From Serpula lacrymans var. lacrymans S7.9 (Eukaryota > Basidiomycota > Agaricomycetes > Boletales > Serpulaceae), in NCBI RefSeq assembly GCF_000218685.1, contig NW_006763303.1, positions 1 through 64,000 on the forward strand: a stretch of 64,000 nucleotides of DNA, read 5' to 3'. The notes below the pieces were generated by a model. The model was not told where the DNA came from. It saw only the letters and a program-made list of their open reading frames with translations, and ran no database searches. This document shows positions 5,614 through 56,814 of this stretch, piece by piece (the first letter of the stretch is position 1; each line of letters opens with the position of its first letter). A program made the position numbers and the translations under genes.

Positions 5614-5975
5614 CTTGTGTCTGAAGCCATGTGTGCCACATAACGCTGAGAGTAAAATGGCACGCTGGTTTTCGATAACCATTGAATGACCATGTCGAGA
5701 TTTTTGTAAAGCTTCGCCTGGTTTTCTATGAAACTTTCAGTCAGCCTCATGTCTTATGTGATCGTTGGCTGGTTGGATAAAGAGTCAACGTGTCTGATGC
5801 ATTAGAGCTATCATAGCAGATCACTGACTTCATCTTCTGAACTATAGCCTAGTCTGGTTTGCATGATCGTCTCAACCATGTTCATGATACTGCGTCTCAT
5901 CACAGTAGCATTCTCCGCCTTTGGGCCTAGAAACCATGCGCCGATACCGTCTCTTCGTGCTCGAAACGAACGCAT
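5614..5975 (-). pseudogene. 5' half of a group II (aromatic amino acid type) decarboxylase gene
   Basis: Two exons on the minus strand: 5975-5825, an intron of 72 bp (5824-5753), then 5752-5614. The translation starts MRSFRARRDGIGAWFLGPKA and ends PFYSQRYVAHMASDTS. The last part is the conserved region that precedes the MLGYIAALLYNPNN block in PLP-dependent group II decarboxylases. The frame then runs into satellite DNA and is lost. Exon 2 ends two bases into a codon. The missing remainder starts at 53785 on the plus strand with the next conserved residues in matching phase. The ATG at 5975 is chosen because the frame upstream of it shows no family similarity. Promoter sequence should lie at 5976-6400. 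In the present arrangement this fragment can only make a truncated product without PLP-binding residues. Confidence 0.8.
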
Positions 5976-7083
5976 GCCAGCAGAAGAACCTGAGTCGGAA
6001 GAAACGTGGTGTGAGGCTAATACGTTACAACTGAATGACCTGGGTATACTTTGAGCAACATAGTAGACGTGCTGGGCCGCCTATTTGAATATTTCGGTAC
6101 AGTGGGAAGAGGATCCGCTTTTCGGTTCCAGGAAGAGTTAGGACGTATTCGGGCACAACTAGGACATAGGAATTGGAGTTATAGAAGACATAGTCCAGTG
6201 GTGAAACTTGGCTGTATGTGTGCCATGACCGAGTAACCATTCGGAGCTCGAGTATCACTCGAGTATTGTTGTCCGTCACATTATGTCCAGTCTGAATTGC
6301 AGGCAGGATCCAAGCTTAGAAGAGTTGGTACGACTTGAAAAGCTTGAACACTTATGTAACATTTTGTTTCTGAAAATTTGTTCCGAACAACCTGAGTGAA
6401 AACCAATATTCAATGTTCGTCGAAATTCAAGCTACCTCGTTTCGCGTAAATATATCGGCCTAGCTCCAGCCAGGCTCCTCAAATCATCTTCGTGTGTATA
6501 TCTACTAGAAAGTGTCTCACCAAATTGCAGTTTATTGCGTTAACCGCACGTCACGCACCGCGTGTCACTCGAGTGTCGCCGTCACTCGTTACGCATCCGA
6601 GTCCTTTCCCATTCAAGTTGTTGGATGACGCACTCGCAATAGAAACTGGCCAGACTCGTCACTCTGTCCCTTTTGAATTCAAAACCAAAGGATCAACCTG
6701 GACGTGAAGGTTCAAAAAATTGAAGCCATCTCCATGCTCTCTTTGTAAGTAAAATGCAGGTTGTACAAAGCACAACAAGACAGGGGAAGGAAAGAATATG
6801 TCACGTACCATACTTGCTTATTGATGACCGTTGAACCAAATGTACGTTTTTAAAACATGACACCGGTGACATACAATCCGTTTGCTAGCTTAACTACCTG
6901 TGATGGTATCGAATCGTCGAATCGTCGCGCCTAGGATCAACAGTGCATATGCTAGTCTAGGCACGAAGTTGATATAAAATTTGTGGTCGCAACATTTTGA
7001 TAGGGTGAATTAACCTTGAAATATTGGCAAAAATTGAAACATAGAACTCTGGATTATGTCACTCCTCGGTGAATCGTCAGGAC
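5976..7083. other. Intergenic region, presumed decarboxylase promoter and monooxygenase 3' region
   Basis: No gene recognised. Several short open frames on both strands show no family resemblance. By position it holds the upstream region of the decarboxylase 5' half and the 3' flank of the monooxygenase gene, both of which read on the minus strand. Confidence 0.5.
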
Positions 7084-9327
7084 TCAATTTCTGGTTGTAT
7101 TTGACGCTCTCAATATGGCCCGTTCCTCGCCTAGAGCCTTGATTTCCTTCGAGGAAATGGGTATAAATGGCCATGTAAACCAGTTACCTCCACTGCGCAG
7201 GATGGGAAGACCCATGTCTTCTAGGAGATCGTCCGACGCTTGTGCATAGCTGATCCATGAACAATTAATGAGACAGAGAATATATAATAAATCAGCCAAA
7301 AGGATGCGTACTCGAAAAAATTAAGCCCACTGCTGTAGCTCTCGTTCACCCATTTTAACATACCCGGATTCCGAATATTGACCCATCTCGCGACTCGTTC
7401 TGTCTCCACGAGCGCATCTTCCGGGGAGGAAGGGAGACGGAGAAAGGGATCAGATAGGAGATACGACGATATCCAGTGGGAGGACACTTCAAAAATGTGA
7501 GCTGGACTCGTGGTGAACTAAGACAGGTGGTCGACATCAATATTAGTTCGAGATGTGATAAAACAAAGACTACCTACCACTGCACCATTGATAGCAAAAT
7601 CACGTCGTTGGATATTGCGAGCTGGAACAAGACCTCGATAAATTGACGACATCCACTGTCCTTGATTACCCAAAGGCAATTGCGGAGGATTCTGCAGCGT
7701 CTTATAAAACTGCCATTCCGACTCCTTAATACCCACATCGCTCAAACAATCATTTCGAACTCGTTCAAGGCCGAAATCACGGAGTATCTCTTCTAAAAGC
7801 AACCGTTAGATGAATGTACAAATCATGACATAACAAAATATCATACCGTCAAATATCCCTTTCCAAGAAGAAGTGTAACCGGTTGAAAGCACAACCACAT
7901 CAGCTCTCACAGAGCTTCCGTCCCGTAGAACGACTGAGTGTCCATCCGGTCCAAAACTAGATACGCGATTAGAAGCGACTAGCTGAATTTTACCCGCATT
8001 AACAAGTGCATGAAAACCATTTGATCGAGGGGAGCCTTCGTCATTGGTTCGAATGCCCCAGAAGAGCGAGTGGGATGTGAGTAGAGGAGAAGTACTGGGT
8101 ATCGAAAGGAATTTTCCCTTTTAGAAGGATAATGAGTCGCTGCAAACGCAGGAGGAGTGGGGTCATACTGAAGCCCAACTGAGTGTGTCCCAAAAACCAG
8201 AAACGATTTTACTACCTAACCAGGTAGTATGTAAAAATTTTCTGCAATTAATATTGATCAATTGCGATAGTTCACATCTAAAAAAATATATGGATACCGA
8301 CTCTAATGCAGTCCTCAGATGAATATGTGTTGCCATGAGACCGAGGAGCCTACATAGTGAAGATACTGATAGTTTAGAAGAAACACCAAATATCAGCGTA
8401 GAAACCTGCCTGCTCTTGCGAATGAAGTGGGGAAGAGGGATAGGCGCGGCTATGATTCCATCTGCAGTCTCGAATGCGATCGAAACTTTCCGGCCCTCGT
8501 TCGCCAAGTACGCAGCGATACTACAAATCTCAATAAGTGTGCGGTACTACCATTCGAATCGGAGCCGCACATACTCTTGGGCTGACTTTCCGCCTCCGAC
8601 CACTACTACGTGACCTGGGTTGGGATCATCTATAGGCTTGACTGCAGAGATGATGTCGTCCAGTCGAGAAGCGAATTCGAACGAGTGAACCACTTGACCA
8701 ACAAAACCCGCCTTCTGGGCGGCTGCGCTTGAAAGTTCGGGGGGTATTCGTGGTAGACTGCATCCCTTCACAATAAGATGAGACCACAGACCCAACACTA
8801 CAATGCCTGCAATGCAGATCTCACTCCTGAACAAAGGACGACGATATCATAGAACAACTGCTCCGCCGTTCCATCACTGTTCTGCACCGAAATGGCCCAT
8901 CCCTTAACAGCTTCTTGGTTGTTACCTTGGTCCCATCGATGGATGTTAACAACTTGCGTATTGAATCGAATCTTGCCATTGAGGAAACGATCTGCGAAAG
9001 CTTCCATGTACTGGCGCATCTCCGTACCTGAAGGACGTTCCTTGATACGTTGCAGATGCATAGGCATCGCCGAGAATTCGTATTCCCCATTGACGCTGGA
9101 ACATTGATTTTTTGTTCAGTATCATGATCTTTCCAGCTGTCTGTTCACACGCGCAGTGCTCACTTGTTTGTATACAGCCCCGGGTAAACTCTATCAGCTG
9201 CCCACACTCCTCCAGCAGTGCGGTCTTTCGAAAGGATCTCAACAGCAAACCCATCGTCGAGGAGCGTCTTCGCAGTGATCAAACCTGCGGCACCAGAGCC
9301 CACAACACAAACTGTTTTCGCCGCCAT
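7084..9327 (-). CDS. Flavin-containing monooxygenase (class B type)
   Basis: Multi-exon gene whose product should use FAD and NADPH to oxygenate a small molecule. The N-terminus has the FAD Rossmann motif GSGAAG (about residues 10-15), then GVWAADRVYPGLYTN and GEYEFSAMPMHL. The FMO-identifying pattern FxGxxxHxxxF appears as FVGQVVHSFEF, followed by the NADPH motif VVVGGGKSAQD. Later segments include FLHTTWLGSKIV, DVVVLSTGYTSSW and GLVPARNI, ending ILRASNTTRN at 7084. Introns are short: 9096-9163 restores NNVNGEYEF, and another restores GKSAQDIAAYLANEG. The tryptophan of the Baeyer-Villiger motif is absent, so an FMO or N-hydroxylating or YUCCA-like enzyme is more likely. No disabling change was seen. 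Exact exon borders in 7800-8500 are uncertain. It lies 1.1 kb upstream of the decarboxylase 5' half on the same strand. Confidence 0.85.
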
Positions 9328-9969
9328 AGGACAAACGGTGGGGGAAAAAATGAAATGAAAACATGTCCAATGATTACCGATTACATACTAGTGGGTCACG
9401 GGAGATCTGGTGCAGGGATGGTATTCGTTTTCTTCAACTTCGGAACCTTGTGGTGGCTGAGAAAGGGGTGTGAAAACTACCTTGGTCTTGCGCACACGGG
9501 TGTGCCCTTCAGAGTTGTTCAACCATTAATATCTTCAAGGATACTACGGTCGCGTTTGATGCTTTTAACGTGAGCCACAGCCAGTCCTTACCTTCAAATT
9601 CCCAGCTGAGTGTTGTTGTATCCAAGCTTCATCAATGTCTACAGCGTTGGGTAAAAAATTCTTTTGCTCAAATACATACGTACTATACAGTCAACAATGT
9701 GCCCTGGATTTTACACAATATCAACGCCATGACTTCAGCGGTAGCATAATTGCTCCGAGAAGCAAGGTTGGGATTAATGAATGTCAATGTTGTACAATTA
9801 CTTACCGAACTGGCGTGAAGCTGAGGCTGGTCTGCACCATCACCAATGGCCCCTACCAGACTCCTGACAAAAAGCCACTCTTCTGTTGTGCTCTTTCGAA
9901 TTTTTTTTTCGCGACTGACGCCAGTGCAAAACCCTTGCAAAGCCCTCACAATGACTCAGACGCATTTTC
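9328..9969. other. Intergenic, monooxygenase promoter region
   Basis: Between the stop of the F-box gene (9970) and the start of the monooxygenase (9327), both on the minus strand. It must contain the F-box gene 3' end and the monooxygenase promoter. No coding sequence recognised. Confidence 0.5.
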
Positions 9970-12230
9970 TTACACATCTGATCCTACCATCTCTGTCATC
10001 TCATAGTCCATCGGAACGTCCTTCCTCTCCAACCATGCCGCATCTTCGCTTCCCAGATCTACACCTTTCCCGCAGTCCAACCTTCTCCGCGCTGGCAACT
10101 CTCGCAGATCGACGACAGGACACCCGATGGTCGAACAGCTTCTGGCGATGACGTAATGCTCTCCGTGCCAGCCCATGAAGTCGAGCGAGGGTGCGGCAAC
10201 GGCCACGCTTTGTGCACTTGATATCCAGATGTCAGTTTGGACACGGAAATCTTTTTCGGATAGGAGATTTGGTTGTGGTCGACGTATAGAGAGATCGCGA
10301 AGGTGGAGGAAAGACAGAGAAGGGAAGATGCTGAAGAATGATGTGAACTCGTTCTTTTGGGCGTAAAGTGGTCAGTGAAGAGATGCGAATGATATAAAAG
10401 AACGTACGATGGGTTTTGCAGAGCGATGCGCGGTTATGTGTATGGCTACCATCTGTTTTGGGATAGCTTTCGCAAGTAATCTAACATTATCCTGATTTAA
10501 CTCCGAAAACTGTACTCGTAGCACACGCAGGCCCGTCAGCTCTGGCAACACATCCATAACAAACCTCCACGGACAACATCCAAGGTCCAACTTCCTTATC
10601 CTCTTTCTGCGGCGCAAGAAGTGTACCACAGCTTCAAATAGTTCGTAGTCATCGTCGTGGTCCACGAGAACCAGCCGGAAATTTTCCAGATACGGCAAGA
10701 ACGTATGCTTTTCGTCGATTATGTGATCACTACTAAACATCACAGACGCCGAGCTCGTCTGTTCAAACGTCCCGTGGAGAGTTAGACCCCGGAGATTGTG
10801 TGCGTGGGCAATGCGTGCTAGGACGACGGACGATATTCGTGTGTCCACGAGGTCTAGTTGGGTGAGGTTTTTGATAGTTGACGACTGGAACGCATTATCC
10901 CAAGAGTGATCGCGTTTGAGGTATGCCCCGAGGCAGAGATGGCGTAGACCATCATTCCTGTCTAAGACTGTTCGTACTTCACCAATGTCGGCAAAACCGT
11001 CGTCGTCCTCGGCGCGAAGAGTGAATTTGTACAAGTTGCGAAAGGCAGAAACGCCTTCGGCATCGAAGTGCCATCCCCTATGGTGTATGTGAGGATATGA
11101 AAGAGGATAGTGACTGAAAGGGGTACTGACATCAAGCCTAGACAACGGATATGTGGATGGCTGGCAAGCAACGATGAGACCATGTCTGCTCGCATTTCTG
11201 GGTAGCCTATCCACTCGAACTCGCGGAGGGCCTTGAACTCCGGCAATGCAGCACGGAACATGCCTGACAAAGGTCAGAAATTATGTTTAGACGTAGGTAC
11301 GGATAAACACACGAGAGACCAATTCCAAAGGCTCCCCTTCCTCATAAGACCAATGTATCCTCAGAACCTTGACGCGATTGGCAAATACAGGGTCACTTCT
11401 TACACGATCAAGAATGTCGAGGCCTCTATGTAAACCTTCTAGATCTTCGCCAAAGTATAAATCCAAGGTGCGAAATATAAGCCGGGTGGCGATATCCCGA
11501 AGAAACGAAGAAACGAAGAGCCAGGTACGGAGGTGGTAGCGAGGGATGTAGCGGGCGATGCGTTCCCAAATTTCTGGTGGGGCACGACGAGAAGCGACGT
11601 CGTTTGAAAAGTGAATCTGAAGCGCCATTGAGCAATAGTCCGTTATTACTGGGGGGATAGAGAAGAAAGAAGACACACGAGTTTATCTCTGCGTACAACT
11701 GACTGCAGTTCGCGATTTGAGGGATCGAGAAGGGAAGCGGATTGATAGTCTGCAAAAGTATAGTGAATACTAAATGACGAGTGATGTGGAACACAATGAG
11801 ATGATGGCATGTTCATGACTCAGATTCTTAGTGGTACGACGATAGCAGAGATCAGAGGATTATGAAAGGGATAGATACCTTGGTGAGACTTGCCGAGTAG
11901 ACACTGACCAGCAGCTCTGCGTGCGTTGCCCCTTGCGATGAGGGCTCTTGCGGCGTCATGGTGGGGTAGACGAGGAGTGCGAAGATAGACGTCTAGATAG
12001 TTTTCGACCTTTGGGCCATAGCTGTGGATGATGGGTGATGTGAGATGGTTTATTTTAGTGAAGTAAGTGAGAACGAACTGTCCGGCGCCGATAAGGGCAA
12101 TAGAAGTATCCAAGAGGAAATTTGCTTTGCTGTTGGGGGGCAAGGAGCACAGGGCATCGATTGCAGCGAGAGTGAGTTCATCCAGCGAACTCGGATCTGC
12201 AATCCTCGTCTGCGGGTCTGAGCAGGTCAT
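9970..12230 (-). CDS. F-box protein with N-terminal SLDELTLAAIDAL block and leucine-rich C-terminal part
   Basis: A single basidiomycete-type gene in several exons. The N-terminal exon (12230 to about 11870) encodes MTCSDPQTRIAD, SLDELTLAAIDALCSLPPNS and ARGNARRAAGQ. An exon around 11690-11760 continues with DYQSASLLDPSNREL. The F-box core follows near 11600: APPEIWERIARYIPRYHL, then WLFVSSFLRDIATRLIFRTL. Downstream are leucine-rich-like segments: LREFEWIGYP, LRHLCLGAYL, LTQLDLVDTRISSVVL and LRVLRVQF. The last exon ends with GWHGEHYVI and RKDVPMDYEMTEM at 9970. An intron at 10354-10407 joins the last two exons in frame. F-box proteins recruit substrates to SCF ubiquitin ligases; the substrate here is unknown. 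I treat the N-terminal exon and the F-box part as one gene because related basidiomycete proteins, as I recall them, carry both; the splice near 11640-11700 is uncertain. Confidence 0.75.
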
Positions 12231-12480
12231 TGTGAGCAAAACATGAATCTAACGTTCCATCCAGAAAAGAACAGCGAATTTGATTGCTCGTCAATTACAA
12301 TTTCAAATTCACCCCTCTCCTCGGTCCGTTCCCGCGGCTTTCTGCGATGATGTAATCCGTAATTCACTTGCCTCTCACCTCTCGCTGGGAGAAACTATAC
12401 TCCTGCACTTAGTATACCGACTCACAGATGGCGTGCTCTACTTCTCAGCACCTAATCTCGTCCGTATATATATCCCACCC
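12231..12480. promoter_or_regulatory. Shared promoter between divergent F-box and dehydrogenase genes
   Basis: 250 bp separate the divergent start codons of the F-box gene and the MDR dehydrogenase. TATATATA at about 12466 is only about 15 bp before the dehydrogenase ATG, so it may lie in the transcript rather than act as a TATA box. Confidence 0.4.
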
Positions 12481-14095: not shown

Positions 14096-15475
14096 GTCGG
14101 GTGTGTCGGAGGAGAAAGAGACTGTTTTCTGCATGAATATTTAGTCAATATATGGTAAATGTATTCTAGTTTGTATTCTTAAGACTGTCTGATTTCAATT
14201 AGTCTTGTCAATCGCAAAATTTTGGACCGTTCCTTCTAGCGAGGTATTAGATTGAAGAGGCCTACGCCATTCCAGTACGATTTGATTCAGGTTGCGCTAA
14301 GGAAATTCTGCACACGGACTTGGATCATCTCATTCAAGTTTTTATCTCCCTTGCTTTCGCCGAGTACTCATCAATCAAGCGTCACCTCGACATCACGTTA
14401 CTTATAGCTTGTAAGGTTGCCATACTAGTGCAGTACGCCAAGCTACGAAGCTCAAAAGCTGTGATAGTTAGCCTCCCTTGGATGGATCTGAGACTTTGGA
14501 GGCCATGTGAGCTATTCTCGCCACCTGTGAATCCCATGTAACACTTCTAACGAGTTCCAACCCGTGGCTCTGCCACTGTGGTGCGATGTTTTTGCTATAT
14601 GATAATCAATAATAATAATAATAATAATACAGTTAAGTGATAAAAATGTTAAGTCAGTGAACTTGTGCTGTCTGTAAAGTATGTTAAGTCTTTGAATCGT
14701 ATGATGCATGTTTGACTTGCTGTTCAGTCGATGAATGGTCTTATAAGCCTGCCCTAAACTTGTGCACAGTACTGTAGAGTTGGTCACACTTAGGTTCACA
14801 TGTTCGGAGATGCATGTGACTGGTGACGAACATCTGTTTACACAGCCCGAGAGTCCAAGCATCGAATTAATATATACCGAAAGATGCCGACTGGACCAGC
14901 CTGTCAAGATTTGAAAGCTCTCGACACAAGCCAGGTGCAATAAAGTTCTGTAACATCTGATTAGTATCAGGGATCCATGGTAGTCACTTTGGGTAATTGT
15001 GTGCCACATTTTTATTGTCTGGGAAGGCTTCTATATAATAGTAGACTATAATACAAGACTAATGAGCCCTTTTCTGTAAAGATTGGTGGTTCCAATCATG
15101 AGATATTTGCATTACAAGTTTTGCATAATGCCTATGCCTATATATGGCAATTGTCACTTCCGACATGGACTTTAGGAACTAATGTCTCATATGGGCCATA
15201 TTGGAATGGGAAATGATACACAGAGGATCATTCAGACAATACCAAAATTAAGTTACCCCAACCAAGAGGGGAGGGGGGGCACCTCACATGGAATTTGTAA
15301 ATCAACGCAAATATAAATATATATAATAGCAAGACGGGGAAATCGATTCCAGGACAATAACATAAGTTGTTTACTAGAAATATTCAATATAAGGGGGTGC
15401 TGACAAGCACATCACACTGAGTGTGCACATTTTGCTGCACTGCTTAGGTGGCTAGCTATTAGATTATTCGATTAT
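14096..15475. other. Intergenic, no gene seen
   Basis: Contains the dehydrogenase 3' flank and a short (AAT)n microsatellite at about 14609-14629. A 165-codon open frame on the minus strand has low-complexity isoleucine runs and no family resemblance. A G-rich run lies at about 15269-15281. Confidence 0.5.
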
Positions 15476-15725
15476 GACTCGTACTTGAAGGTTCAGATGG
15501 TTCAGACGGTTCAGACGGGCGGTTCAGACACCGGGTTCAGACGAAAGGGCTCAGATGGGCGGTTCAGACAGTGGAACTGTCTCCAAGGAGGTTCAGACAG
15601 GCAGTTCAGACAGCGGAACTGTCTCCAAGGAGGTTCAGACAGTTCAGACGGACAGTTCAGACACCGGGTTCAGACACAAGGGTTTAGACGGGCGGTTATG
15701 AGACATCGTAGGTTGGTTCAGACCC
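15476..15725 (+). repeat. GTTCAGAC minisatellite, related to part of the satellite unit
   Basis: Irregular array of GGTTCAGACGG-type octamers and decamers with two longer interspersed units containing GGAACTGTCTCCAAGGAGG. The entry sequence CTCGTACTTGAAGGTTCAGA resembles the satellite at about 52537-52560 (CTCGTACTCAAAGGTTCAGA), so it looks like an expanded, diverged relic of that part of the 1,805 bp unit. Confidence 0.75.
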
Positions 15726-17098: not shown

Positions 17099-17999
17099 AT
17101 GCCCTCCTTCACCATTGCGGGTGCGCTGCTTGCTCTCGCCAATCCCGACAATGATCCTTGAGGCTGGGGTCGTTGGCAAGCGATTACCGGCTACCCCACC
17201 GCACCCTGGCTCGTAGAAGATGGCGCTCAAAATATTGTCCATTGGAGCGTCCAAATGCGTGAAGTGATTTCATCATTTGTGGCGTCATTCTTTGCAGCAC
17301 CGGCAAGCAAAAAGCTTCGAGTCACTCAGCGCAAATCGGACGCACATGTAGAAGGCCGCACAGCTTGGACGTCCTTTGTCAGCGCAAACTGGAAGTCTGT
17401 TTGGAAGGCTCAAGATATCATTGACGCGACGTTGAAGGAGCAATCCTGTGGCCCTTACAAGGCAATGGGCCGGAGGAAATCCCGCAATGTAAGTCTTGCG
17501 AATGTCAAGAGAGTGCTATTGATGATTCCACACGCTCACACTCAAACCACTCCTTTAGCTTCCGACTTTAGAAAGAGCTCAGGTTCACAAGGCTTATCCA
17601 TTCCTCGCATACGCACTCTTTGGTGAAGACAGTGCCGCCAATGCCACTGCGACGTTCCTCAAAGACAATGTTCAAGACTTCCTCGAGCGGATCATGGCAT
17701 GCATGTGGAACCGATACTGGAAAAATTTAAATCGCGAGCGGGTCAAAATGGTGGAACTTCAGGCCACAGTGAAAACATCTTGGCTAGGTATGTTTAATGT
17801 CGTCGCTATTCAGTCTGATCACTAGTTAACCACGCTTGTATTTTGCATTCTCTTACAAAATTGACTACAAGCAACACTACACCAACATCAGCTCGCATAC
17901 GACACTATCTGGCTAGTTCAGACAAATTAATCACGTTGTTGAAACGATACAACGATCCGGAATCTGTCAAACAGATCAAAGATCAGCGTCAACAAATTT
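17099..17999 (+). pseudogene. Truncated hypothetical protein gene with premature stop
   Basis: The ATG at 17099 opens a frame MPSFTIAGALLALANPDNDP that meets TGA at 17159-17161. The same frame continues with GWGRWQAITGYPTAPWLVED and on through SSFVASFFAAPASKKL. An intron (about 17488-17558) leads to an exon encoding LPTLERAQVHKAYPFLAYAL and NRYWKNLNRERVKMVE. A second intron (about 17788-17890) leads to LASSDKLITLLKRYND, after which the sequence passes into a diverged satellite fragment at about 18000. I do not recognise the family. The coding quality, the intron signals, the single internal stop and the abrupt 3' end suggest a formerly functional gene. The TGA could be a TGG-to-TGA change. 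Confidence 0.6.
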
Positions 18000-18190
18000 G
18001 TACCATGATTTTCTAAATATGTCAGGGTAAGATATATGTCAGTCTTTACTTCTGGTCAAAAAAAAAAGATATATATTAGAGGTTTTCACCATAATAGTAT
18101 CTAACTAGTACCAAAAGTCCAATTACACTCATGATCTCAATTGGAAAATTTGAGTGTGACAAAAAGTCCAATTGAGATCATGATTTTAAT
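18000..18190 (-). repeat. Diverged satellite fragment
   Basis: Begins TTGTACCATGATTTTCTAAA and matches, with substitutions and small indels, the satellite portion at about 52275-52420. That portion includes the AGATATATATTAGAGGTTTT motif and ACTAGTACCAAAAGTCCAAT. It is in the same orientation as the inverted monomer at 51966-53784. The divergence is clearly greater than among the tandem copies, so this is an older copy. Confidence 0.85.
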
Positions 18191-42807: not shown

Positions 42808-42869
42808 AGATCAGGAGATATATTATTACGGCGGCTTTTTCAAAAATTATATCTAGAAGGGGACGACAT

Positions 42870-44827: not shown

Positions 44828-45032
44828 GTATACTAGGACCTACAAGTTGAAGATTTTCGAAGAACGTATTTCATAAATGTGGTGGATGACATAAGCAACG
44901 CACTGCTTTAGAATCCGATAATCAATGTCTGTCTCCAAGGAGCGATAATCCCTCGAAATGTGACGTTAATCGAGGCTAAAGAATGAACGTGGGAAAACCA
45001 CGCGGAGGGAGACATCAGCTGGACGTCCTATA
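44828..45032. other. Kinase promoter side and left flank of the pogo element
   Basis: No gene. Ends with the TA at 45031-45032 that is duplicated at the other end of the element. Confidence 0.5.
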
Positions 45033-45074
45033 CTGTCGTTCCCAGTCAGTTCGTATTTGAGGTACAATTCGGAC
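45033..45074 (+). repeat. Left terminal inverted repeat of the pogo-like element
   Basis: 42 bp starting CTGTCGTTCCCAGTCAGTTC and ending CAATTCGGAC, preceded by TA. Exact reverse complement of 48348-48389. Confidence 0.93.
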
Positions 45075-45344
45075 ACTATCTGAAAACACCATATAGCACT
45101 TAGTACTTACTTTAGTTATTTTACCCAGTGAATTGAAAGACCTTGAAAATCCCTCCTGAAGTTTTTTCAGCTCGAAATATCAAGCCGTTCTTCTTTCCCT
45201 TCTTTCAAGCCATTTTTCGACCTGTAACAGCTATGTAATGCTCAAACAATAGAGCGGAAGCTCCCGAAAGTCAGATTCAGACCCAGGTGTACGTGCGCCA
45301 CAGGCTGTCGAACAATGTGTTTGACACACTTCAAGAGTCCTACA

Positions 45345-48160
45345 ATGGCCCGTCAGCGAAAATCAGCAGCAAAACGTCCCTACCGAGCGTCGAAGGACCT
45401 GGAATACGAGAATAGGATACAGGCAGCGATAGAGGGCTATAAACGGGGGCTCTACAAGTCATATGCAGAGGCTGCGAGGTTAAACAACGTGAGTGATTAG
45501 ATTTCTGATCGATTGATCAGATGAATGTGATCTGGAGTTTAGGTTGCCCGTCAAACACTTCATGATCGAGCGAAAGGAGTGCACAAGACATACCAACAAG
45601 GTCAAGAAAAGAAACAGCTCCTATCTGCAGCAGAAGAATCGGTTTTGCTCGATTGGACACAACACTATGGCACCATGGCCAACCCCATGTGTCCCAAGAA
45701 GCTTCGGTCGTGTGTGCGTGATATCTCGGGAAAAATCCCTGGAAAACATTGGCACTACAGGTTCATTAGCCGCAATCCATCACTTGTTCTCCGAAAGCCG
45801 CAGAAACTGGACCCGAAGAGAGCGAAGAACTTCAACCGGACAGTAGTGGCTGACTACTTTGCACAGCGAAAACAGTTGAATGATATGTATGGTGGGATTC
45901 CTCCGGAACATGACTGGAACATGGACGAGAAGGGGATTCAAATGGGAGGAGGCAGGAAAGGAGACGGGACAAAGTACTTTTATAATAGGAAGCAGAAGGG
46001 ATCATACCGCATCTCGGACGACAATTTGGAGCTTGTTACGGTGATAGAGTGCATTAGTGCTGCTGGAGTGTTGATGAAGCCTGGTTTCGTGTTGAAGGAG
46101 GGGCCACTGCCTGATTTAAGTGACGTCGAGGGCATAGGAAGGTCCGTTTTCTCCATTCCTCTGCCCATATCATTTTACTAACCTTTTCTTCCAGTATATC
46201 CCGTACAAAAACTGGCTGGACAAACCGTGGAATATGTGAGGAGTGGTTCAACAAGACATTTATCCCTGAGTCCCGAGCTTGCCGCATTGATGACAGGCCG
46301 GTCGTTCTTACTTTGGATGGCCATGACTCGCATGAGCAACCTGTCCTTCAAGCTCTAGCTTATGAACACAGCATCATTATCTATTGCCTCCCATCAAAAA
46401 CCACTCATAAATTACAGCCACTTGATGTTGTCGTGTTTGCCCCAGTTGGAAGGAGTTGGAGTTCGCACGCAAGCCGCCTTGCAATAGAAGGCATCAAAAT
46501 TGATCGTTACAACATTGTTCCAGAGTATCTTTCTATCCGTCATATTATTACACCAGAACTCATCCGCACGGCCTTCAAGGAGACTGGTATCTATCCGTTC
46601 AACCCGAATGTCTTCACGGAGGGGGACTTTGCGCCAAGCCAAGTAACGTCCACATCTGCTCACTTCCCTGATAGTTATCCAAGTGACGTTGACACAAGCG
46701 ACGAGTCTTTCCATACGAGCGACGGTAGTAATGAGTCAGACACCGAGTCAGATCTGATGCAGGATGACTCCCCCCCAGGACTGCTTGGTTTGACAACGCT
46801 CCCTGGCCCGACAGTTGAATTGGACGGATACCACGACCAAGAACCCTCTCAGGAGTATAGAGAGAACAACGATGAACAGGAAGACTCGTCTTCCTGTTCA
46901 TCTCCATTCTATCCTATTTTCCCCCACCTCTTTGCTTCTTCGCCTACTCAAGCTTCCTCCCCCACACGGGAGGGTTCAACACTTCCGCCTGAGCTCTTTT
47001 CCTGGCCGCGTTTCTCCAATACTCCACCACCATCTCCTTTGCAGATGTCTTTGCCGCCACTCCCTCCTGCTGATCCTTTCGTCAATAGCGCCTCTCGATC
47101 ACAAACTGGCAGTGCCCCATCTCCTTCTCCATCACAGCTTGGGCTTGATGTCTTTCCATCTCCTACACCATCTGACCGTGTGCGCACAAAAGCCACCTTT
47201 GCTCAAAGAAGGTGCAGCGGATACATGACTAGGTCTTCATCTGCGCAGTCTGTGGGGGCTGTTTTAAATAATGGGCAGAATGTGTCTCCAGAACAAGATC
47301 AACGGTGTTCGCACCCTGAGTTGTTGATGCAGTTGCAGAGCACTCAGTTGAAAGTCGGGCTCCTTGAGGATGAAAACACACAGCTGAAAGTGACGTTAGC
47401 ACAGCTCAAGGCTGAAAGGGATGCAGCCAATGCACATTGTACGCTTGCTCGACGTGATGCGGAAGACATACGGAAGCGCTCAGGAAACCATAGGAAGCCT
47501 CGACGAGGCACCACGAAACCGACTGCCCAGTTTCTCACTCATCCTGAATTAAAGGCCGTGTTCGAACAGCAGGAGATCGAGCGGAAGGAGAAAGCCCGCA
47601 TAGACACAGAAAAGGAGGCAAGTAAGCAGCAAGAAGACACCGCTCGTAACACACGAATAACAATAGAGACTGTGATGAAAGTCTTTGACAGATCTTTTGC
47701 GTCTTACAAGCGCAAGGAGGACCTCATTGTCATAGCCGGTGCTCTTGGTTTACCGATTGATGGGACAGTCAAAGCCCTCATTGAAAGGATCAAGTCTCAC
47801 CTTCAAGGACATAAGGAGTTAGCAGATAACCCCCAGTTTGCTGGCCTTTTTGGCCGTCGTATTCAGGCCCCTGAGGGTTCTAGTCACTCCGGACAATCAT
47901 CCCAATCACCCTTATATTCTAGTGTCAACTCATCTACTGCGTTTTCCCCCCAGTCTGTCCAGACTCCATCTTTTTTGGCCACACAATCGCAATTTCCTGG
48001 CCCCACATTTTACAACGGTTTCTCTGGCCCAGGCTGTAGTACTCCTGGGCCCTCATATAACTTCAATATCTCTGAGCGTGTTTTACCTCCCCCAACTGAT
48101 GAAAATGGTGTGACAATTACATATTATAATGAGTTGGGTCAACCGTACTATGTTTTGTAG
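45345..48160 (+). CDS. DDE-superfamily transposase (pogo/Fot1 type) with long C-terminal tail
   Basis: Three exons, 45345-45488, 45543-46141 and 46195-48160, give 902 residues. The start MARQRKSAAKRPYRASKD is chosen as the first Met with basic, transposase-like N-terminal residues; an upstream in-frame ATG at 45315 is possible. Residues 20-60 form a Psq/HTH-like region (AAIEGYKRGLYKSYAEAARL, then NNVARQTLHDR). A CENP-B-like second DNA-binding region follows (SAAEESVLLDWTQHYG). The acidic triad is visible as WNMDEKG (about D176), LTLDGHDSH (about D289) and KLQPLDVVVFAP (about D325), a DD35D spacing as in Fot1/pogo. After about residue 390 comes a long Ser/Pro/Asp-rich tail, a coiled coil (about 620-660) and a SAP-like segment (KEDLIVIAGALGLPIDGT, about 750-785). 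The enzyme should cut and paste the element at TA sites. Confidence 0.92.
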
Positions 48161-48347
48161 TTAAATATACTCTGAATCTGGTGAAACTGTTGTTTTGATT
48201 CTGAGTCAAGCATGAAAGCAATGCCTACTATTCTACTATTATTTGTTAGCAGTGGGACTTCGTCATTTTTTGAGGCTTTCCTCTGCCGAATCGGTGCTTC
48301 AATCCGGCATATGTGACCTTAGCGTTACTTTTTGTTACCTTTGTGAC

Positions 48348-48389
48348 GTCCGAATTGTACCTCAAATACGAACTGACTGGGAACGACAG
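48348..48389 (-). repeat. Right terminal inverted repeat of the pogo-like element
   Basis: 42 bp from GTCCGAATTG to GGGAACGACAG, followed by TA at 48390-48391. Confidence 0.93.
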
Positions 48390-48391
48390 TA

Positions 48392-48897
48392 CGGAGGATG
48401 TTGCCCGGAAAATAGGATGCAAACCTCCTTGGAAGGTGGAAGCAGAAACGACCCGGTGTCGATGATGAGAACTGTTGTTAGAAAACCACACACAAAACAA
48501 ACTAACACACAATCCTCCCAGATTCCACGGAACTTGTTTATGGGCTTTGCCTCCTAGAACAGTGGAGTGGTCTGGTTGTTCGTGGGGTGGTACGTATAAA
48601 GATCCTTCAAAGTAAAACCCAGTGGTGTATGAGTGTGGGTTTTGAGGAGGAGGGATAGTTGAATTTATAGAAAGATAGGGGGTTTGTGGCGAGTATAGAC
48701 GAGCACTACCTTGCTAATCGTAGCACAAGGTAGGTTTGAGAACAACGAGGATGACGAGGTGACGAGGTTCCCAGTGATAGCAGGCTCCTGACGCACAAAC
48801 TGTAGTGCTCAGAAGGACTCTAATCGAAGGGGATGACAATCACTTTCAAAAGTGACGAGTGACGATGACAGCAGTTAACAGTGGTAGAAGTGGGAAG
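48392..48897. other. Non-coding flank between pogo element and small LTR
   Basis: No gene recognised. The TGGGAAG at 48891-48897 is the left copy of a 7 bp direct repeat bordering the next feature. Confidence 0.4.
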
Positions 48898-49240
48898 TGT
48901 TGTGACCACACTGGATCACAAGTAGCAGTAAGAAGTGGACTTAAGATTAGAGAAGAAGTCTGGAATCGAGTTCTTGTTGTTTTTTTACAAGGTAAAATAC
49001 AGGGGTTTATATAGTAAAAGAGAAGTAGGCTATGCACAGTATAGCTGTGCAAAAAGAATGAGAAAGAATATGAAGGAAGGAATGTACGCTGACGAATCCT
49101 GCGTAGGTAGTACAGGATAAGATTATCAAAAAAAGAAAAGAAAGGGATAGAACAATAAATGCTGTGAGTAATATCACAGGTTTGTACAGCCATAAAGTAA
49201 AGTCCAATAGCAAAAAGAGAGCAGGAAAATCATGATGTCA
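48898..49240 (-). mobile_element. Probable small solo LTR (Copia-like)
   Basis: A 343 bp segment that on the minus strand begins TGACATCATGATTTTCCTGC and ends GTCACAACA (TG...CA). It has a CTATATAAACCCC box about 225 bp in. It is flanked by a perfect 7 bp direct repeat TGGGAAG (48891-48897 and 49241-49247). LTR elements usually duplicate 4-6 bp, so the 7 bp duplication is either two chance matching bases or points to another element class. Confidence 0.5.
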
Positions 49241-49423
49241 TGGGAAGATGCAGTAAAAAAAGAGCAAGGCAAAACACTATCAGTATCAACACAGTTCCTT
49301 TATTGTCAGTCAGGCATTCTAAAAAAATATGTGTCCATAAAAATGATTCAAAAATCAAAAATAATCGCACTGTAAATGAATGTTCTGCTGAAAAAAAAGA
49401 AACTGGAGCCACCGGTCCACCAC

Positions 49424-49966
49424 CTAGTCCAAATCTGACAGTTCCATGGCCTTACCAATGGACTGGTTGTGTTGGACCACCTGATCAAACGAGGGAGGGA
49501 GAGGAGTAGTTCCAATTTGGAACAAGTGAGTCCCAGGCAGCGTGTGGTAGGTGTAGCTGTAGCGAAGACGATGGACAAATGATAAGTGTACCCAAGTGAA
49601 TGGGACAGCGATGAACATGGGCGACGCAAGGGGATGAACCTTCTCCAGCTCAAAAATTACCCACCCACGCTCCAACCAGGCAAGACGAGCGACCGATGTT
49701 TTGATAGTATATGATGGCAGATCGACGTCATGAAGATGGACCTGTTGCCCTATTTGGACCGGCCGCCGGGGCTTTGCTGATATCAGCAGTGGCACGTGGT
49801 AGTCAACGGATCGGCGACGGAAGCGGATAGGAAGTGGTGACATCAGAAATGGTGGGGGTGCAAAGAAGATGAGGAGGAGGAGGGTGGAGGTGACGAGGAG
49901 GTGAACTAAAATGGGGACCCAGAAACGACCGTCGGGTGAGAATAAAAAGGAGAGGAAGGGGCCCAT
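49424..49966 (-). CDS. Hypothetical membrane-anchored protein
   Basis: Intronless frame of 180 codons. The start MGPFLSFLFSPDGRFWVPIL is followed by a hydrophobic stretch (about residues 16-36, LVHLLVTSTLLLLIFFAP). Then comes a basic segment (PIRFRRRSVDYHVPLLI) and a soluble part with RLAWLERGWVIFELEKVHPL and FTWVHLSFVHRLRYSYTYHT. It ends PPSFDQVVQHNQSIGKAMEL plus SDLD. This looks like a small protein with one N-terminal membrane anchor. The upstream in-frame ATG at 50104 is not used because the TGCCGAAA octamer repeat lies there. Composition and conserved-looking phrases support a real gene, but I cannot name a family. Confidence 0.5.
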   Translation of the reverse strand: MGPFLSFLFSPDGRFWVPILVHLLVTSTLLLLIFFAPPPFLMSPLPIRFRRRSVDYHVPLLISAKPRRPVQIGQQVHLHDVDLPSYTIKTSVARLAWLERGWVIFELEKVHPLASPMFIAVPFTWVHLSFVHRLRYSYTYHTLPGTHLFQIGTTPLPPSFDQVVQHNQSIGKAMELSDLD

Positions 49967-50052
49967 GGTGGGGCTAGGCAAAGGAAGGGGAGTAAGGGAA
50001 ACGACAAAAGTGAGGGCGCAATGCAATGTGTAGCCAGTGGCGACGCGAAAAT

Positions 50053-50084
50053 TTGCCGAAATGCCGAAATGCCGAAATGCCGAA
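50053..50084 (+). repeat. TGCCGAAA octamer, four tandem copies
   Basis: Four perfect copies of an 8 bp unit upstream of the hypothetical membrane protein start (49966, minus strand). Changes in copy number would alter the promoter or leader, not the protein, if 49966 is the start. Confidence 0.85.
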
Positions 50085-50585
50085 AGTACCGGATGGAAAA
50101 GCAAAGGTGAGCATGACTGGATTGCCTAATAGAGGTGGTGCTGATCAGCCACAAGTTCAAAAGGGGCAATATTAATTACTATTCCACGTGGCACTGTGCC
50201 TGTGTGGCGCAAAGGCGAGTCTTTTTGAATATTCGCTTCGTTATTGACACCTGTCCATGCTACCAATCAACTTTGGTGCATGACACCGGAAGAATCGAAA
50301 TTCATTTCGGCAAAACCGCGCCGGAACAATAAGCTTCTGCGGAGTATTTAAGGATCGCCGCATGTTGATATAGTTGTCCCGAGGTTGCAGAGGTGCTACA
50401 ATCAGGTTGACCGGAAAGTAGCTCGCTAAATCGTCACGTGTAGGTTCGTTATCTTCAGGGACAATTGCCGAGGAGTCCCACACCCGTTGGTCGGACTCGA
50501 TTATAAAGGTGTCTAAGAAGGTTCGGACCAGCACATTTCCTGATTCGCCCTTGCAGCATGTCCATCCACGACGATACATATAAAT

Positions 50586-51201
50586 ATGAATAGTCGTACA
50601 CAGCGCAAGCGTACAATGGAGCCAGATGGATATACCTTGGGGTCCACGCCACGAAAGCACATGGCGATAGAAGCAGACGACGACGATGACAGCGGCGAGG
50701 AGCCGTTCGACTTTGACCGAGACTACCAGCCACCTGCGGGGGAGGTGTTGATGGTCCCTTTTGTAGGCGTATCTTGAAAGTTGTGGCGCCCTAAACTGAC
50801 TAGCCGATCGGCAGGCGGTCCCTTGTAGCAGATGCCAATTGACTCCTGGGAAGGTGGAATGTATGCGTGAGGTCTCCACGGAGGAGACATTGTCGAAGCA
50901 CACGAGTTGCTCGCTGTGCGAACAGCGGGGGTCGCATTGCTTCTGGGGCACCCTTAAGCTTTGTGGAAATCTGGAAAAGGCACAAATGCAATCAGGTACG
51001 AGCAAGAGTCGAACGTAACCGTCCTAGGAAGGTCATCCGGTTTTTGCGCATTTTACAGAGAAATTGCTTGATCCCATGGGTCTGCTGAAGGAGGATACCA
51101 ACCAAGAACGCGAACAAGCGATCCAGCGCCACATGAAAGTATCTGCAGACCTCGCATCTACGGACAAAATGCTCTCCGAGGCAATTTCAAAGTTGATTTA
51201 G
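50586..51201 (+). CDS. Small Cys-rich hypothetical protein
   Basis: Three exons, 50586-50762, 50815-50995 and 51059-51201, total 501 bp (166 residues) in frame. The N-terminal third is acidic (MAIEADDDDDSGEEPFDFDR). The middle has regularly placed cysteines (VPCSRCQLTPGKVECM, then SCSLCEQRGSHCFWG and KLCGNLEKAQMQ). The C-terminus is helical and charged (REQAIQRHMKVSADLASTDK) and ends SEAISKLI. Cys-x2-Cys pairs with RGxxCxW resemble degenerate zinc-cluster proteins common in agaric genomes, often near retroelements. The last expected Cys pair is incomplete (CGNLEKAQMQS), so metal binding may be lost. A 254-codon open frame on the opposite strand overlaps it and is less protein-like. Support is exon phase consistency and motif spacing only. 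Confidence 0.5.
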
Positions 51202-51920
51202 CACGAGAAAACTGAACGACGTTCCCATTTGTTTTGCATTTTACAATAATGTTCAGCATAAGTTTTGACTTGGACTGGTAAGGGAATTGTGCAAAGTAAA
51301 AGTTTGACAGGATTGCATTAAATTATCCTGGACTACCTTTCAATGAATGGGATTCACATAAAAGAATGATTTCGGTGAACGACGGTGGAAATGCATAGCA
51401 GCGTAGAACGGTAAAATATAGACCAGTGTGATGCACGAATGCGGAGGGCTCTGGGGAAATAATAATGTTGAATGAATGCCACGTTTGTATCGCGAACGAT
51501 CCGGGGATGACCCAATGCTTGTGTGCAATGTGGTGCTCACAAGACGCCGCGGATCGAACGAACTCCTTGGAGGAACACTTTTGGACGGCTCATGAAATGA
51601 AAACGCGTAATTCGAGAGCATCAAAATATCATATATATTGTACAAAGGATAGATGCTGTGCTTTATACATTTGTTTTGAGATGAAGAATAAAACTGTGCA
51701 CTCAATGAAGCAAAGGAATTATGCCACACACGTAACGGAGCATGAAACTGATTAGAATGGCGGAAAGAAGAACCACGATATAGTATTCGGTATACACGAA
51801 TAGGGAGAGAAATCGATAAATAAAGGTCCATGGCATTGCAAATGTCCCAATACAAAGAAAGTAGTGTCGAGTGATGAGTTAGTTGAAAGAGATTGTGTCA
51901 GGCAGTCGGAAGGACTTATA
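51202..51920. other. Intergenic, no gene recognised
   Basis: Open frames on both strands (for example 51340-51855 minus) have no family resemblance. Confidence 0.45.
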
Positions 51921-51925
51921 AAACC

Positions 51926-51966
51926 AGGTTAAGGTTAAGTTAAGAGGTTAAGGTTAAGGTTAAGAA
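51926..51966. repeat. GGTTAA hexamer tract at the satellite border
   Basis: About six degenerate copies of GGTTAA (AGGTTAAGGTTAAGTTAAGA and so on), immediately left of the inverted satellite monomer. The satellite unit itself contains CCTTAACCTGCTAACCTGG nearby, so the tract may be an expanded piece of satellite. Confidence 0.7.
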
Positions 51967-53784
51967 GAAAACAAGATTTTCGCAATCACCACCAAGTCAA
52001 AAGGACAACCACCCACGACCGACCGATATAGGACATATCCCCGGGATCATGCGAGACATTCTGGGCAATAATGCAAAGCAAAATAAGGACAAACGAAGAC
52101 AAAAAAGACGAGGTCTTCGCAATCAATCACCAAGTCAAGTCACTTTAATAATCTACTTTTACCAGGACGCCCCATCCTGGTATCCGCAACTTCCTTATAT
52201 GGTAGTTGCAAGCATCCGCAACCTATTAGTCATATCCGCAACCTGTCCGCAACCTAGCTATTAGATCCTCGGATTGTACCATGATTTTCTAAATATGTGA
52301 GGGTAAGATATGTGTCAGTCTTTACTTCTGGTCAAAAAAAAAGATATATATTAGAGGTTTTCACCATTTAACTAGTACCAAAAGTCCAATTACACTCATG
52401 ATCTCAAATGAACAGTCTGAGTGCCAAAAGGTCCGATTGAGATCATGGTTTCAAATGGACTATTTGTCACACTCGAACTGTCCGATTGAGATCATGATTT
52501 CAAATGGACCTAGCTATTAGATCCTTGGATTACCACTCGTACTCAAAGGTTCAGACGGTTCAGACAGGGAAAGTTCAGACAGCAGAACCTCGCGACCGTA
52601 TAATGGTCACATGACAGACGTATATGGGAAGCTATTCCCACGACCGAATCAGGATATAAGCCCGGGATCATGTGGCACAAACCAGGCAACAATACAGAGC
52701 CAAACAAAGACAAAAAAATGAGATTTTCGCGATAACCACCAAGTCAAAGGGACGACAACTAGGACATATCCCCGGGATCATGTGACACGTCCCGGGCAAC
52801 GATACAGAACCAAATAAAGCCAAACAAACACGAAAAAAAATGAGATTTTTGCAATGACCACCAAGTCAAAGGGGACGACAATACAAGGTCGAACGGAGCC
52901 AAACAAATGCAAAAAAAAACAAGTTTTTCACAATCATCACCAAGTCAAAGGGACGACAACCCACGACATACATGTGGCACATTCCGGGCAATAATATAGA
53001 GGCAAATAAAAACAAACAAATACGAAAAAAAAAATGAGATATCCCCGGGATCATGTGACACATTCTAGGCCCAATACAGAGCCAAATAAAACCAAACAAA
53101 GACGAAAAAAATGAGATTTTCGCAATAAACCACCAAGTCAAAGGGACAAGTCACGACCACTACTCCAGCGATGATCAGGACAAGACATGGGCAAACAAAT
53201 CCGAAAAAAAAACACAAGGTTTTTGCAAAAGTGACGACCACCCAGCCACATGTCAGTACGACGTATCAGGACACAACAAAGCCAAACAAAACAGGATTTT
53301 TGCAAAAAAAACGACCACCCAGCCGTCGAGTGAGTCATCAGAGACGACCAAGGGAACGAATAAGTCCAAACCACTGTCAGTGGGAAAGATGACGAGACCA
53401 AACGTTCCCACCAGTCTGAGACAAGTTTACAAACACAAAACGAGTCAAAAAACGCGAAAATTGTCAGTCTCAAGATACAAGACTTGTGATAGGAAATACA
53501 AACGAATAGAGCGGTCAATAAATCCGAAAAAATAACGAGTATATCCCGTCCAAGCCCGGGATCAGTGTCAACAAAGCTCGGGTTTATAGGACACGAATCA
53601 AGGCAAAAAAAAACAGGACTTTGACAAAAAAACCGGGGGGAAGTTGATCAAAGGCTCGTTAACTCAGTGTCATGGGAACGTAGAGACAAAGCCCCCCTTG
53701 GGGGGTTGGGGGGCCAGGTTAGCAGGTTAAGGGTAGGTCCCACACCAAATAAAGCAAGACAAAGGCCAAAAGAAAACAAGATTT
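51966..53784 (-). repeat. Single inverted, circularly permuted satellite monomer
   Basis: One complete 1,805 bp unit in reverse orientation plus about 14 bp repeated at both ends (AAGAAAACAAGATTT). Its start point in the unit is different from that used to number the array, so it is a permuted monomer. By eye it is almost identical to the array units. It ends directly against decarboxylase coding sequence, which resumes TTACCCGGAATGCTGGGA. Confidence 0.95.
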
Positions 53785-56700
53785 ACCCGGAATGCTGGGA
53801 TACATAGCCGCTTTACTCTATAATCCAAATAATTGCTCCCCGGAAGCCAGTCCAGTCACGAGCTGCCTCGAGTTTCTTGTCGGTAAACAGCTCTGTGCCA
53901 TGGTTGGATATGAAGTCCGGTCGTCAATTGAAGAACCCGATCGGGATGAAATTGTGGGCTGGGGACATCTAACCTCAGGCGGTACAGTCGCCAATCTAGA
54001 ATCTATGTGGTATGTGGTATGCATAATCGTATCCGGAAATACACAATATCAATTCATTGTATTTTATCTTTTTTGCAGGGCTGGTCAGTACAGTCTTGCC
54101 TCAGCATAAGTATTGACATCAATGAGCTTTAAATGTATCTAGCTCGTAACTGCAAATTCTTTCCACTGTCACTGAAATGGGCATCTGAAGACGGCAATCC
54201 TCTGGCGTTGATCGCATCCTCATTCAACATCAATCTGTGTACAGGCACGAAGAAACTTCTTAGTGAATGCAGCACTTGGGAATTAATGAACATCACTCCC
54301 GATGAGGTCGTTGAACTGATAGATCGACTCTGCGAAGAATACGGATGTTCTCCAGAATACATACAAGATATTTTGAACCCCTACCTGGTTCAAACAACGG
54401 GAAGAGGAGTTTTAGAGAAGCATTTCAATATTAGGTGTCCGATAAGATATTTCGTTGGACAAACGCTTCATTACTCGTGGCCAAAAGCTGCAGGTAAAAT
54501 CTTAATGTCGCGCTATGTATCGGTAATGCGCTGGTTGCTAAGCTGATAATTTCCAGGGATCTCAGGGATTGGAGAGGAGAATGTAGTTGCAGTCCCTCTA
54601 TCTATCACAGGTCGCATTGACACCAACTTACTCGACGTTCATTTAAGTTACTGTTTGCAGCGCAAACAGGCTGTGTATGCTGTCGTAGTTATCATGGGGT
54701 GAGCTACTTACACGATCCCTAACCTCCAATACATCGTGTCAAAACCGGCTAATCTCCTCTCAGTTCAACAGAGCATGGACTGGTTGATCCACTTTCTTCC
54801 ATCATTCAACTGCGAACCAAGTATCGCAAACTTGGACTATCTTTTTTAGTCCATGCAGACGCTGCATGGGGAGGTTACTTTGCGACGCTTCTAGTCCCAG
54901 TACCCCTCAGCGAAAGTGATGACTGTCAAGTAGATGCGTTCGATCCTGAGTCTTTGATGTCGCCCTATGTCAGAGAAGAATTTTTACACTTACGCTACAC
55001 TGATTCTATCACCATCGATCCTCATAAATCTGGTTACATACCCTATCCCGCTGGTTCTCTTTGTTACCGGAATGGGAAACTGAAGAACATGGTGACCAAG
55101 TCGGCTTCTTACATTGTGAGCAGCATCGACAGCCGTGATAGCAAAATGGGCATCTATGGGGTGGAGGGGAGGTAAGTGTTGGCTTCTCTGGAACATTGGA
55201 CAGTCTGTAATAGTAGAATGCAGTAAACCAGGGGCTGCAGCTATGGCCGTGTGGTTATCAAATGAGACCATTGGCTTACACAAAGGTGGGTATGGCATGA
55301 TTCTGGGCGAGTCGATGTTTACTACCGTCAAGGTACACAGTCTCTGTTTTCATCGAGAGCCAGACCACCTAACTTTGCTTGTATAGATGTACAGCCATTA
55401 CGTGACGATGGGTATGAAAAGTTCTAGACTCATCGTCGTTCCATATATCATGTTGCCCAGCGAACAAGAGGGTAAGACACAAAGAGATATCATCGAAGAG
55501 AAGAAACATATCCTCGATGCCATCGTTGGTCGTTCAGATGACGAAATCATGACGAACCCGAAGACACGGGAACTTATGAGGAAATTAGGCCCCGATCTTA
55601 TTGTCTTCACGTTCTCATGTAACTTTATCTGCGCTGACGGCACAACGAACGAGGACGTTCAGGAAGCGTCCATCCTGAATGAGAACATTTACCAAAGGTT
55701 CTCTATACACAATCCTACCGATTCCGCAAAGGACTTTCGATACTTCATAGGATCATCGACGATGCAGCAGCGGAAATATGGACTAAGCTTAACGAACTTC
55801 AAACAGCGACTTGGACTTATCGGTGAAGAAGATCTCTTTGTGTTGGATAATGTTGCGATGACACCGTTTCCAAACAACACTGAACGTATTGCTCTGCTTG
55901 TCGAGGAATTTCGTACGGTCGCAGAAGATGAAGCAGAGGTGAGCATATAGATCCATAAGTGCTTGATGATGAGTTGAATCATGTTTCCAGAAATGCGCCT
56001 TGAGAAATACCGTTACTCCGACGTCACATGAATTCGTGGTACAGGGAGAAGACCGATTGTACCTGGTGTACAAAGCCTGTTTTAACACTGCCAGCTCCCG
56101 ATATCAACATGTGATCACCGGAGATATACCAATTACGTCGAAACAGGAGTATCTTGACAATAAAAGACGGATACCTTTCGCAACATTCACAGCAAGAACC
56201 CTGGAGAACATAGAGATCACATCTTTCATCAACAAAAATAGTTTTTCCATTGAGATCACATCAACGTCACCCACAGGGTACGAATCCCAAAATTTGTCCT
56301 GATAACGCTTACTCTTGGCTCACTTTATACAATTAAATCCAGTACGATAGCAATCTTAGAATGTGAAATCACCAATATCAACACCATCTACACTTGCCCT
56401 CTCTCCCGACGATATTTGGAGCCGGAATATCCTGATACGATGCTGTTCTATCTCTACGGAACGCCCGCGGAGACATTTATAGAACACATTCTCCTTCGTT
56501 CGCCAAACGTGCAGCTTAATGGACGAGTCGAGATCGACCTCCCTGGAGTCGACGAGAACAAGCTGAGAGCGGAATTCGAAAGGGGATTTATCATGAAGAC
56601 GGACATACTCGAGCGTGCACGACTTCCTTTCACGCCCTCTCATCGCCCGACGTTCTTTCAGCCTGGCCTCAAGGCCAAGATATCGCTTTTCCACAGAGAT

Positions 56701-56814
56701 TGCCACAAGTCTCGACTTTCCGACCATGTCAAGAATTACTTCGCGAAAGGCACGATGGTATTGAAAGATACAATATATGTGGACTTCGATCTTCTTAACC
56801 GCACCATGCATTGA
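53785..56814 (+). pseudogene. 3' half of a group II aromatic amino acid type decarboxylase gene with C-terminal appendage
   Basis: Begins in mid-codon after satellite DNA with LPGMLGYIAALLYNPNNC, then WGHLTSGGTVANLESMW. A 5 bp micro-exon (54079-54083) between introns 54010-54078 and 54084-54142 restores SMWAARNCKFF. Catalytic features are HADAAWGGY and the PLP-lysine motif SITIDPHKSGYIPYPAG. Further segments: SKPGAAAMAVWLSNETIGLH; GKTQRDIIEEKKHILDAIVG; KDFRYFIGSSTMQQRKYGLS. After about 55980 comes an appendage of some 220 residues containing GEDRLYLVYKACFNTASSRY, YPDTMLFYLYGTPAETFIEH and VEIDLPGVDENKLRAEFERG, ending DLLNRTMH at 56814. Such an appendage is known in the calcium-activatable non-canonical decarboxylase described from Psilocybe cubensis. 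All seen exons are open. The first ~97 residues and promoter are missing here and are found at 5614-5975. Confidence 0.85.
54079..54083 (+). other. Five-base micro-exon of the decarboxylase gene
   Basis: GGCTG lies between TTTTTTGCAG and GTCAGTACAG. The preceding exon ends two bases into a Trp codon (54009) and the next exon begins CTCGTAACTGC (54143). Only inclusion of GGCTG yields W-A-A-R-N, the sequence conserved at this place in group II decarboxylases, and keeps the frame. Confidence 0.75.

Follow-up and report, generated by a model that had tools for sequence, protein, structure and literature searches.

The first 64,000 bases of contig C14 of Serpula lacrymans S7.9 (hereafter the window) hold what is, judged by its sequence, a single gene for a group II pyridoxal phosphate (PLP)-dependent decarboxylase, now split into two halves on opposite strands, with copies of an 1805-bp satellite at both breaks. 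We consider it probable that both joints arose from one conservative inversion of 48.2 kb between the gene and the base of the terminal satellite array, without loss of sequence. A search of the S7.9 assembly (42.6 Mb, 29 contigs) confirmed that the window begins at base 1 of C14, a contig of 1,109,249 bp, and no N was found anywhere in its 64,000 nt. The coordinates of all features are collected in Table 1.

The 5′ half starts at an ATG at position 5975 and, after removal of a 72-nt GT-AG intron, encodes 96 residues plus two bases of a further codon, ending in VAHMASDT+AG. Its intron was picked among 14 frame-keeping splices (six of the 13 others being GC-AG), and the resulting distance between the AEN and AHM landmarks is 70 residues versus 74 in 7/7 relatives. 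The 3′ half comprises nine exons and eight GT-AG introns with no internal stop and yields 849 residues counted from its first complete codon. A 5-nt exon, GGCTG, was observed in this half at 54079-54083 between two short introns, and the resulting protein agrees with the relatives. Both halves keep open frames free of stops, and each was single-copy in the S7.9 genome in a DNA search. The public databases hold them as separate S7.9 proteins, SERLADRAFT_400120 (53 aa) for the 5′ half and SERLADRAFT_452847 (847 aa, a record representing 2 member sequences) for the 3′ half; the latter is identical to our model and annotated from an internal Met.

The continuity of the gene was evident from comparison with relatives. 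Among 120 hits listed, 12 sequences were aligned, eight of which had an annotated N-terminus, and in the six of these used for the test (6/6) the end of the 5′ half and the start of the 3′ half fell on consecutive residues (147/148, 164/165, 126/127, 128/129, 124/125, and 109/110). No codon is therefore missing between them, and chance similarity of two unrelated fragments is ruled out in the relatives tested. A preliminary description of this DNA had located the two fragments and the incomplete codon correctly, and its proposal of one ancestral decarboxylase gene is borne out by these consecutive residues together with the open frames and the single copies. The annotated 3′ half scored 48.5 bits with Pyridoxal_deC (PF00282), for which the cut-off is 27, and its PLP-lysine motif DPHK was invariant in 12/12 aligned sequences, the S. 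lacrymans 3′ half counted among them; the tyrosine decarboxylase C-terminal model PF21391 stayed below its cut-off (17.1 versus 27.2 bits). The reconstructed gene shares with the fungal group II PLP-dependent (L-tyrosine-type) decarboxylases of PF00282 the Pyridoxal_deC domain, DPHK, the N-terminal SPRY-AHM block, and a C-terminal extension like that of Agaricomycete relatives. It differs from them in that the S. lacrymans gene is split, with each half filed as a protein of its own.

The two joints proved to be reciprocal. The trinucleotide TTT is common to both, and ACAAG stands beside it in gene and satellite alike, such that one exchange within TTT, between ACAAG-TTT-ACCC in the gene and ACAAGA-TTT-TCGC in the satellite, yields both observed joints with zero bases lost. 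When positions 5614-53781 were turned round by script, the 1805-base period of the array was held across the exact joint with 1 mismatch in 1936 bases, this mismatch being a private base of the lone satellite monomer next to the 3′ half. Moving the joint by 1 to 9 bases either way (18 shifts, −9 to +9) gave 82-94 mismatches, and the phase was exact only at shift 0 of the 19 positions compared; the lone monomer ends at precisely the phase where the left array begins. The same turn makes the codons of the gene continuous, so that both parent sequences are restored. Because the phase is exact after the turn, no entry of the monomer into the gene has to be assumed, and the insertion of an arbitrary satellite stretch is argued against by the same match.

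Table 1. Features of the split decarboxylase gene, its joints, and the adjoining repeats (positions in the window)
Feature	Position	Strand	Details
5′ half, group II PLP-decarboxylase	5614-5975	minus	Exons 5975-5825 and 5752-5614; intron 5824-5753 (chosen splice)
3′ half of decarboxylase gene	53785-56814	plus	PLP-lysine motif DPHK; stop codon ends at 56814
Left inversion joint	5611-5614		Minus-strand reading: gene ...ACAAG / TTT / TCGC... satellite; TTT (5613-5611) shared
Right inversion joint	53781-53785		Satellite ...ACAAGA / TTT / ACCC... gene; 53781/53782-53784/53785
Inverted segment	5614-53781		48,168 bp, lone monomer included; basis: exact phase and consecutive residues
Subtelomeric tandem array	1-5613	minus	About 3.1 units of 1805 bp; innermost satellite base 5613; A-rich strand towards contig end
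Lone satellite monomer	51966-53784	plus	One 1805-bp unit and 14 bp of the following one; final three bases shared with the gene
Interstitial telomere-type tract	51926-51965	plus	40 bp of TTAAGG and TTAAG units; adjoins lone monomer

We take the 1805-bp repeat, from its distribution, to be a subtelomeric satellite arranged in tandem at chromosome ends. The array at the left end of C14 holds its period of 1805 at 99.95%, and its three full units differ by 0-2 bases. On C2, a related array of 1747-bp units with 93% identity occupies the initial 5.2 kb, and satellite fragments were also found close to the right-hand ends of C7 and C11. The satellite is on the minus strand at the left ends of C14 and C2 and on the plus strand in the C7 and C11 fragments, and the A-rich strand faces outward at all four ends; partial fragments inside contigs were found in either orientation. 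Compared with either of the two nearest array units, the lone monomer shows a single difference in 1805 bases, against three for the outermost full unit. Its private base, at position 52073, is absent wherever the flanking word was matched, at four places on C14 and two on C2. The satellite arms at the two breaks stand in opposite orientation, as the preliminary description had noted; reported as 100% complementary over 1.8 kb, they differ at that 1 base in 1805. Among 45 satellite matches, no second whole monomer stood alone in unique DNA, and all copies outside the C14 and C2 arrays were partial. The longest of these, at C10:1832249-1833284 (~1 kb, 92%), lies about 145 kb from the contig end and begins 178 bases past a run of N, where a longer copy is possible.

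A short tract between the lone monomer and the rest of the inverted segment further marks the place of the array. Telomere tracts, mainly of TTAAGG, were found at seven contig ends (C1 left, C2 right, C5 left, C7 left and right, C11 right, and C13 right) in a survey of 37 of 58 ends (21 left and 16 right, one of which reads N). The 383 units parsed included 276 TTAAGG, 37 TTAGG, 33 TTAAG, and 17 TTAAAGG; at the right end of C7, ~40 non-telomeric bases follow the tract at the very contig end. Three consecutive TTAGGG occurred nowhere in the S7.9 genome, whereas three TTAAGG with at most two mismatches occurred 264 times, versus 13 for the reversed pattern (places were listed for the best 100). 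TTAGGG is reported for Phlebopus portentosus, also of the Boletales (PMC12411881), and for most of 21 Basidiomycota (PMC10100673). We found no description of a TTAAGG telomere in S. lacrymans among the literature titles listed. The tract beside the lone monomer matches terminal tracts at seven contig ends and, like terminal tracts, is directed outward from its segment. It was the sole non-terminal copy among 80 matches listed; every other tract-only match listed for a 201-base query covering it lay within 0.5 kb of a contig end, in a search in which 18 candidates were scored and the counts are lower bounds. Since it stands as the only non-terminal tract among those matches, we take it as the old boundary between a 46-kb block and the array, that is, the old array base.

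From these observations, the history we favor can be laid out. The ancestral left end would have carried the satellite array, a short internal telomere tract, 46 kb of DNA, the decarboxylase gene, and the rest of the chromosome. Two double-strand breaks would then have opened the gene at ACAAG/TTTACCC and the array at ACAAGA/TTTTCGC, one monomer outside its base, and end joining would have reconnected the broken ends crosswise through the 3-bp TTT overlap. The 48.2-kb piece, together with the innermost monomer, would have been turned round with no net loss or gain of bases. In the present order, the upstream region of the gene and its first 96-97 codons face the array close to the end of the chromosome, and the remaining ~850 codons lie behind a satellite monomer 48 kb away, with neither a start nor an upstream region of their own. 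The lone monomer is best read as the innermost array unit carried along by the inversion. Its difference of 1/1805 from the nearest units and the openness of both frames suggest that the break is probably recent. The preliminary description is thus supported in its view that an inversion with satellite at both joints broke the gene and that flipping the segment restores it; removal of one monomer is not needed, as turning 5614-53781 returns it to the array.

Several points weigh against this history. The direction of change rests on parsimony. An exact 100-base word gave no phase, because that word spans the private base of the lone monomer, and the phase result depends on the mismatch count. 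Further internal telomere tracts are possible, given the 18 candidates scored and the 100 best places listed. Insertion of exactly whole monomers would produce the same joints. Finally, the annotation of the two best-scoring relatives, P0002 from Hygrophoropsis and P0003 from Leucogyrophana, begins at the internal Met from which the 3′ half is also annotated, and an older split shared with these genera would contradict a recent event. In our reading, these two starts reflect gene models that were truncated or copied. In Lactarius, two records (P0033 and P0047) are annotated from a Met three residues earlier and are possibly models of the same kind.

The main rival to a single inversion is the insertion of whole monomers into the gene, followed either by a true inversion or by assembly in the wrong orientation. 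In its biological form, which we regard as unlikely, one or more complete monomers, for instance from an excised circle, entered the gene at TTT, and recombination with the terminal array then inverted 46 kb. This course would give the same joints and phase if the insert were an integral number of units, and the inverted 1.8-kb arms, reported as fully complementary, would have offered a ready substrate for recombination. It nevertheless requires two events, and the base at which the insert was opened must also be the one at which it was closed. For an arbitrary insert, the chance of falling in phase would be a few in 1805, and among the 45 satellite matches no other whole monomer stands alone in unique DNA, although the copy on C10 may be longer. 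The preliminary description had placed a satellite insertion first and a satellite-mediated inversion of ~46 kb after it. This sequence of events is not supported as proposed: the satellite forms a subtelomeric array at the contig end rather than an insertion, and the lone monomer is in exact phase with that array and has a telomere-type tract beside it. A single 48.2-kb inversion accounts for these features, and the two-step course survives only with a whole-monomer insert.

An orientation error in the assembly, less probable still, would mean that the real chromosome has the uninverted order, with satellite interrupting the gene, and that the assembler turned 46 kb between near-identical inverted satellite stretches. 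The near-identical inverted arms of 1.8 kb and the end of the assembly inside the array are compatible with such an error. An integral-monomer insertion would still be required, however, because both gene-satellite joints are assembled without gaps, and the one-step inversion is not a turn of the sort that repeats produce in assembly, because one of its breakpoints lies outside any repeat. We give very little credence to an older split shared with Hygrophoropsis and Leucogyrophana, under which the 3′ part would be a gene in its own right starting at MLGYIAAL. The annotation of P0002 and P0003 as proteins of 849 and 847 aa from this same Met is what such a split would produce. Yet the S. lacrymans 5′ half keeps an open frame that runs up to the codon next to the 3′ part, the near identity of the lone monomer to the array speaks for a recent break, and the missing N-terminus holds conserved core sequence. 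Moreover, a search with the 5′ half (the query being slightly mis-spliced) returned two proteins, the S7.9 record and a metagenome fragment, and neither genus.

Under the single inversion, the N-terminal SPRY-AHM block has been separated from the part that carries the PLP lysine. With the 3′ part deprived of its own start and upstream region, we infer from the sequence that the enzyme is lost. An intact copy elsewhere in the assembly was sought, and none emerged from searches by DNA and by protein. Each half is single-copy by DNA, and when a full-length relative (P0006) was used as a protein query, the 13 matches in the S7.9 genome fell at two loci only, the split gene and a paralogue at C6:2761577-2766534. 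In this paralogue the DPHK motif reads DPHL, a conserved block contains an in-frame stop, and an interruption spans ~1.5 kb; the locus is a probable relic. In that case, this subfamily would have lost its last competent copy through the inversion; the survey covered loci that match P0006, and more distant decarboxylases fall outside it.

Gene-breaking subtelomeric inversions are a known kind of event, and the case described here shares with paracentric subtelomeric inversions that disrupt a gene and are sealed by end joining or microhomology its two reciprocal joints, a 3-bp microhomology, the lack of net loss, and a single gene cut. It differs in that one breakpoint lies inside a subtelomeric tandem array of 1805-bp units, where its exact site can be read from the repeat phase. 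We found no description, among the literature titles listed, of a satellite breakpoint read exactly or of open halves filed as separate proteins. The array may also be likened, by arrangement alone, to the Y′ elements of budding yeast, which are tandem, helicase-encoding subtelomeric units at chromosome ends; both consist of tandem end units, and those of C14, once the order is reconstructed, are external to a short internal tract of telomere type. The longest stop-to-stop frames of the S. lacrymans unit are 158 and 169 aa, which are not helicase-sized and may set it apart from Y′; further differences are that the base of the C2 array shows no internal tract in the 300 bases viewed and that only two contig ends (C14 and C2) bear a satellite array among the matches listed. 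As a speculative and rather doubtful extension, the array could act as a Y′-like end buffer with divergent TTAAGG telomeres: a few bases in common would have let the array capture a broken gene end on the same chromosome, and the terminal block of 48 kb that was set free would have been reinserted in reverse. The chromosome end would thereby have been rescued, and the genome would have given up the one copy of this decarboxylase that was still catalytically competent.

Elsewhere in the window, an Rfam scan gave no match at the gathering threshold, and 14 open reading frames scanned in the inverted segment gave Pfam matches in no more than two places, one a DDE_1 transposase and the other a protein-kinase exon. 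The transposase frame lies within a transposon-like stretch at 45031-48391 whose perfect 44-bp terminal inverted repeats start with TA and suggest that it is young. Older satellite pieces occur inside the segment at 15452-15507 (86%) and 17998-18189 (88%), as expected for subtelomeric mosaic DNA.

Taken together, these results indicate that SERLADRAFT_400120 and SERLADRAFT_452847 are parts of one gene and raise the question of whether a truncated gene model has been copied to other Boletales. They describe a probable gene loss by subtelomeric inversion resolved to the base, with both halves still open, the age of which and its presence among strains could be checked by a simple polymerase chain reaction. 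S7.9 and S7.3 are listed as monokaryons of different mating types (PMC3564976). The inversion may have cost S. lacrymans S7.9 its last competent copy of this decarboxylase subfamily, if the paralogue on C6 is indeed a relic.

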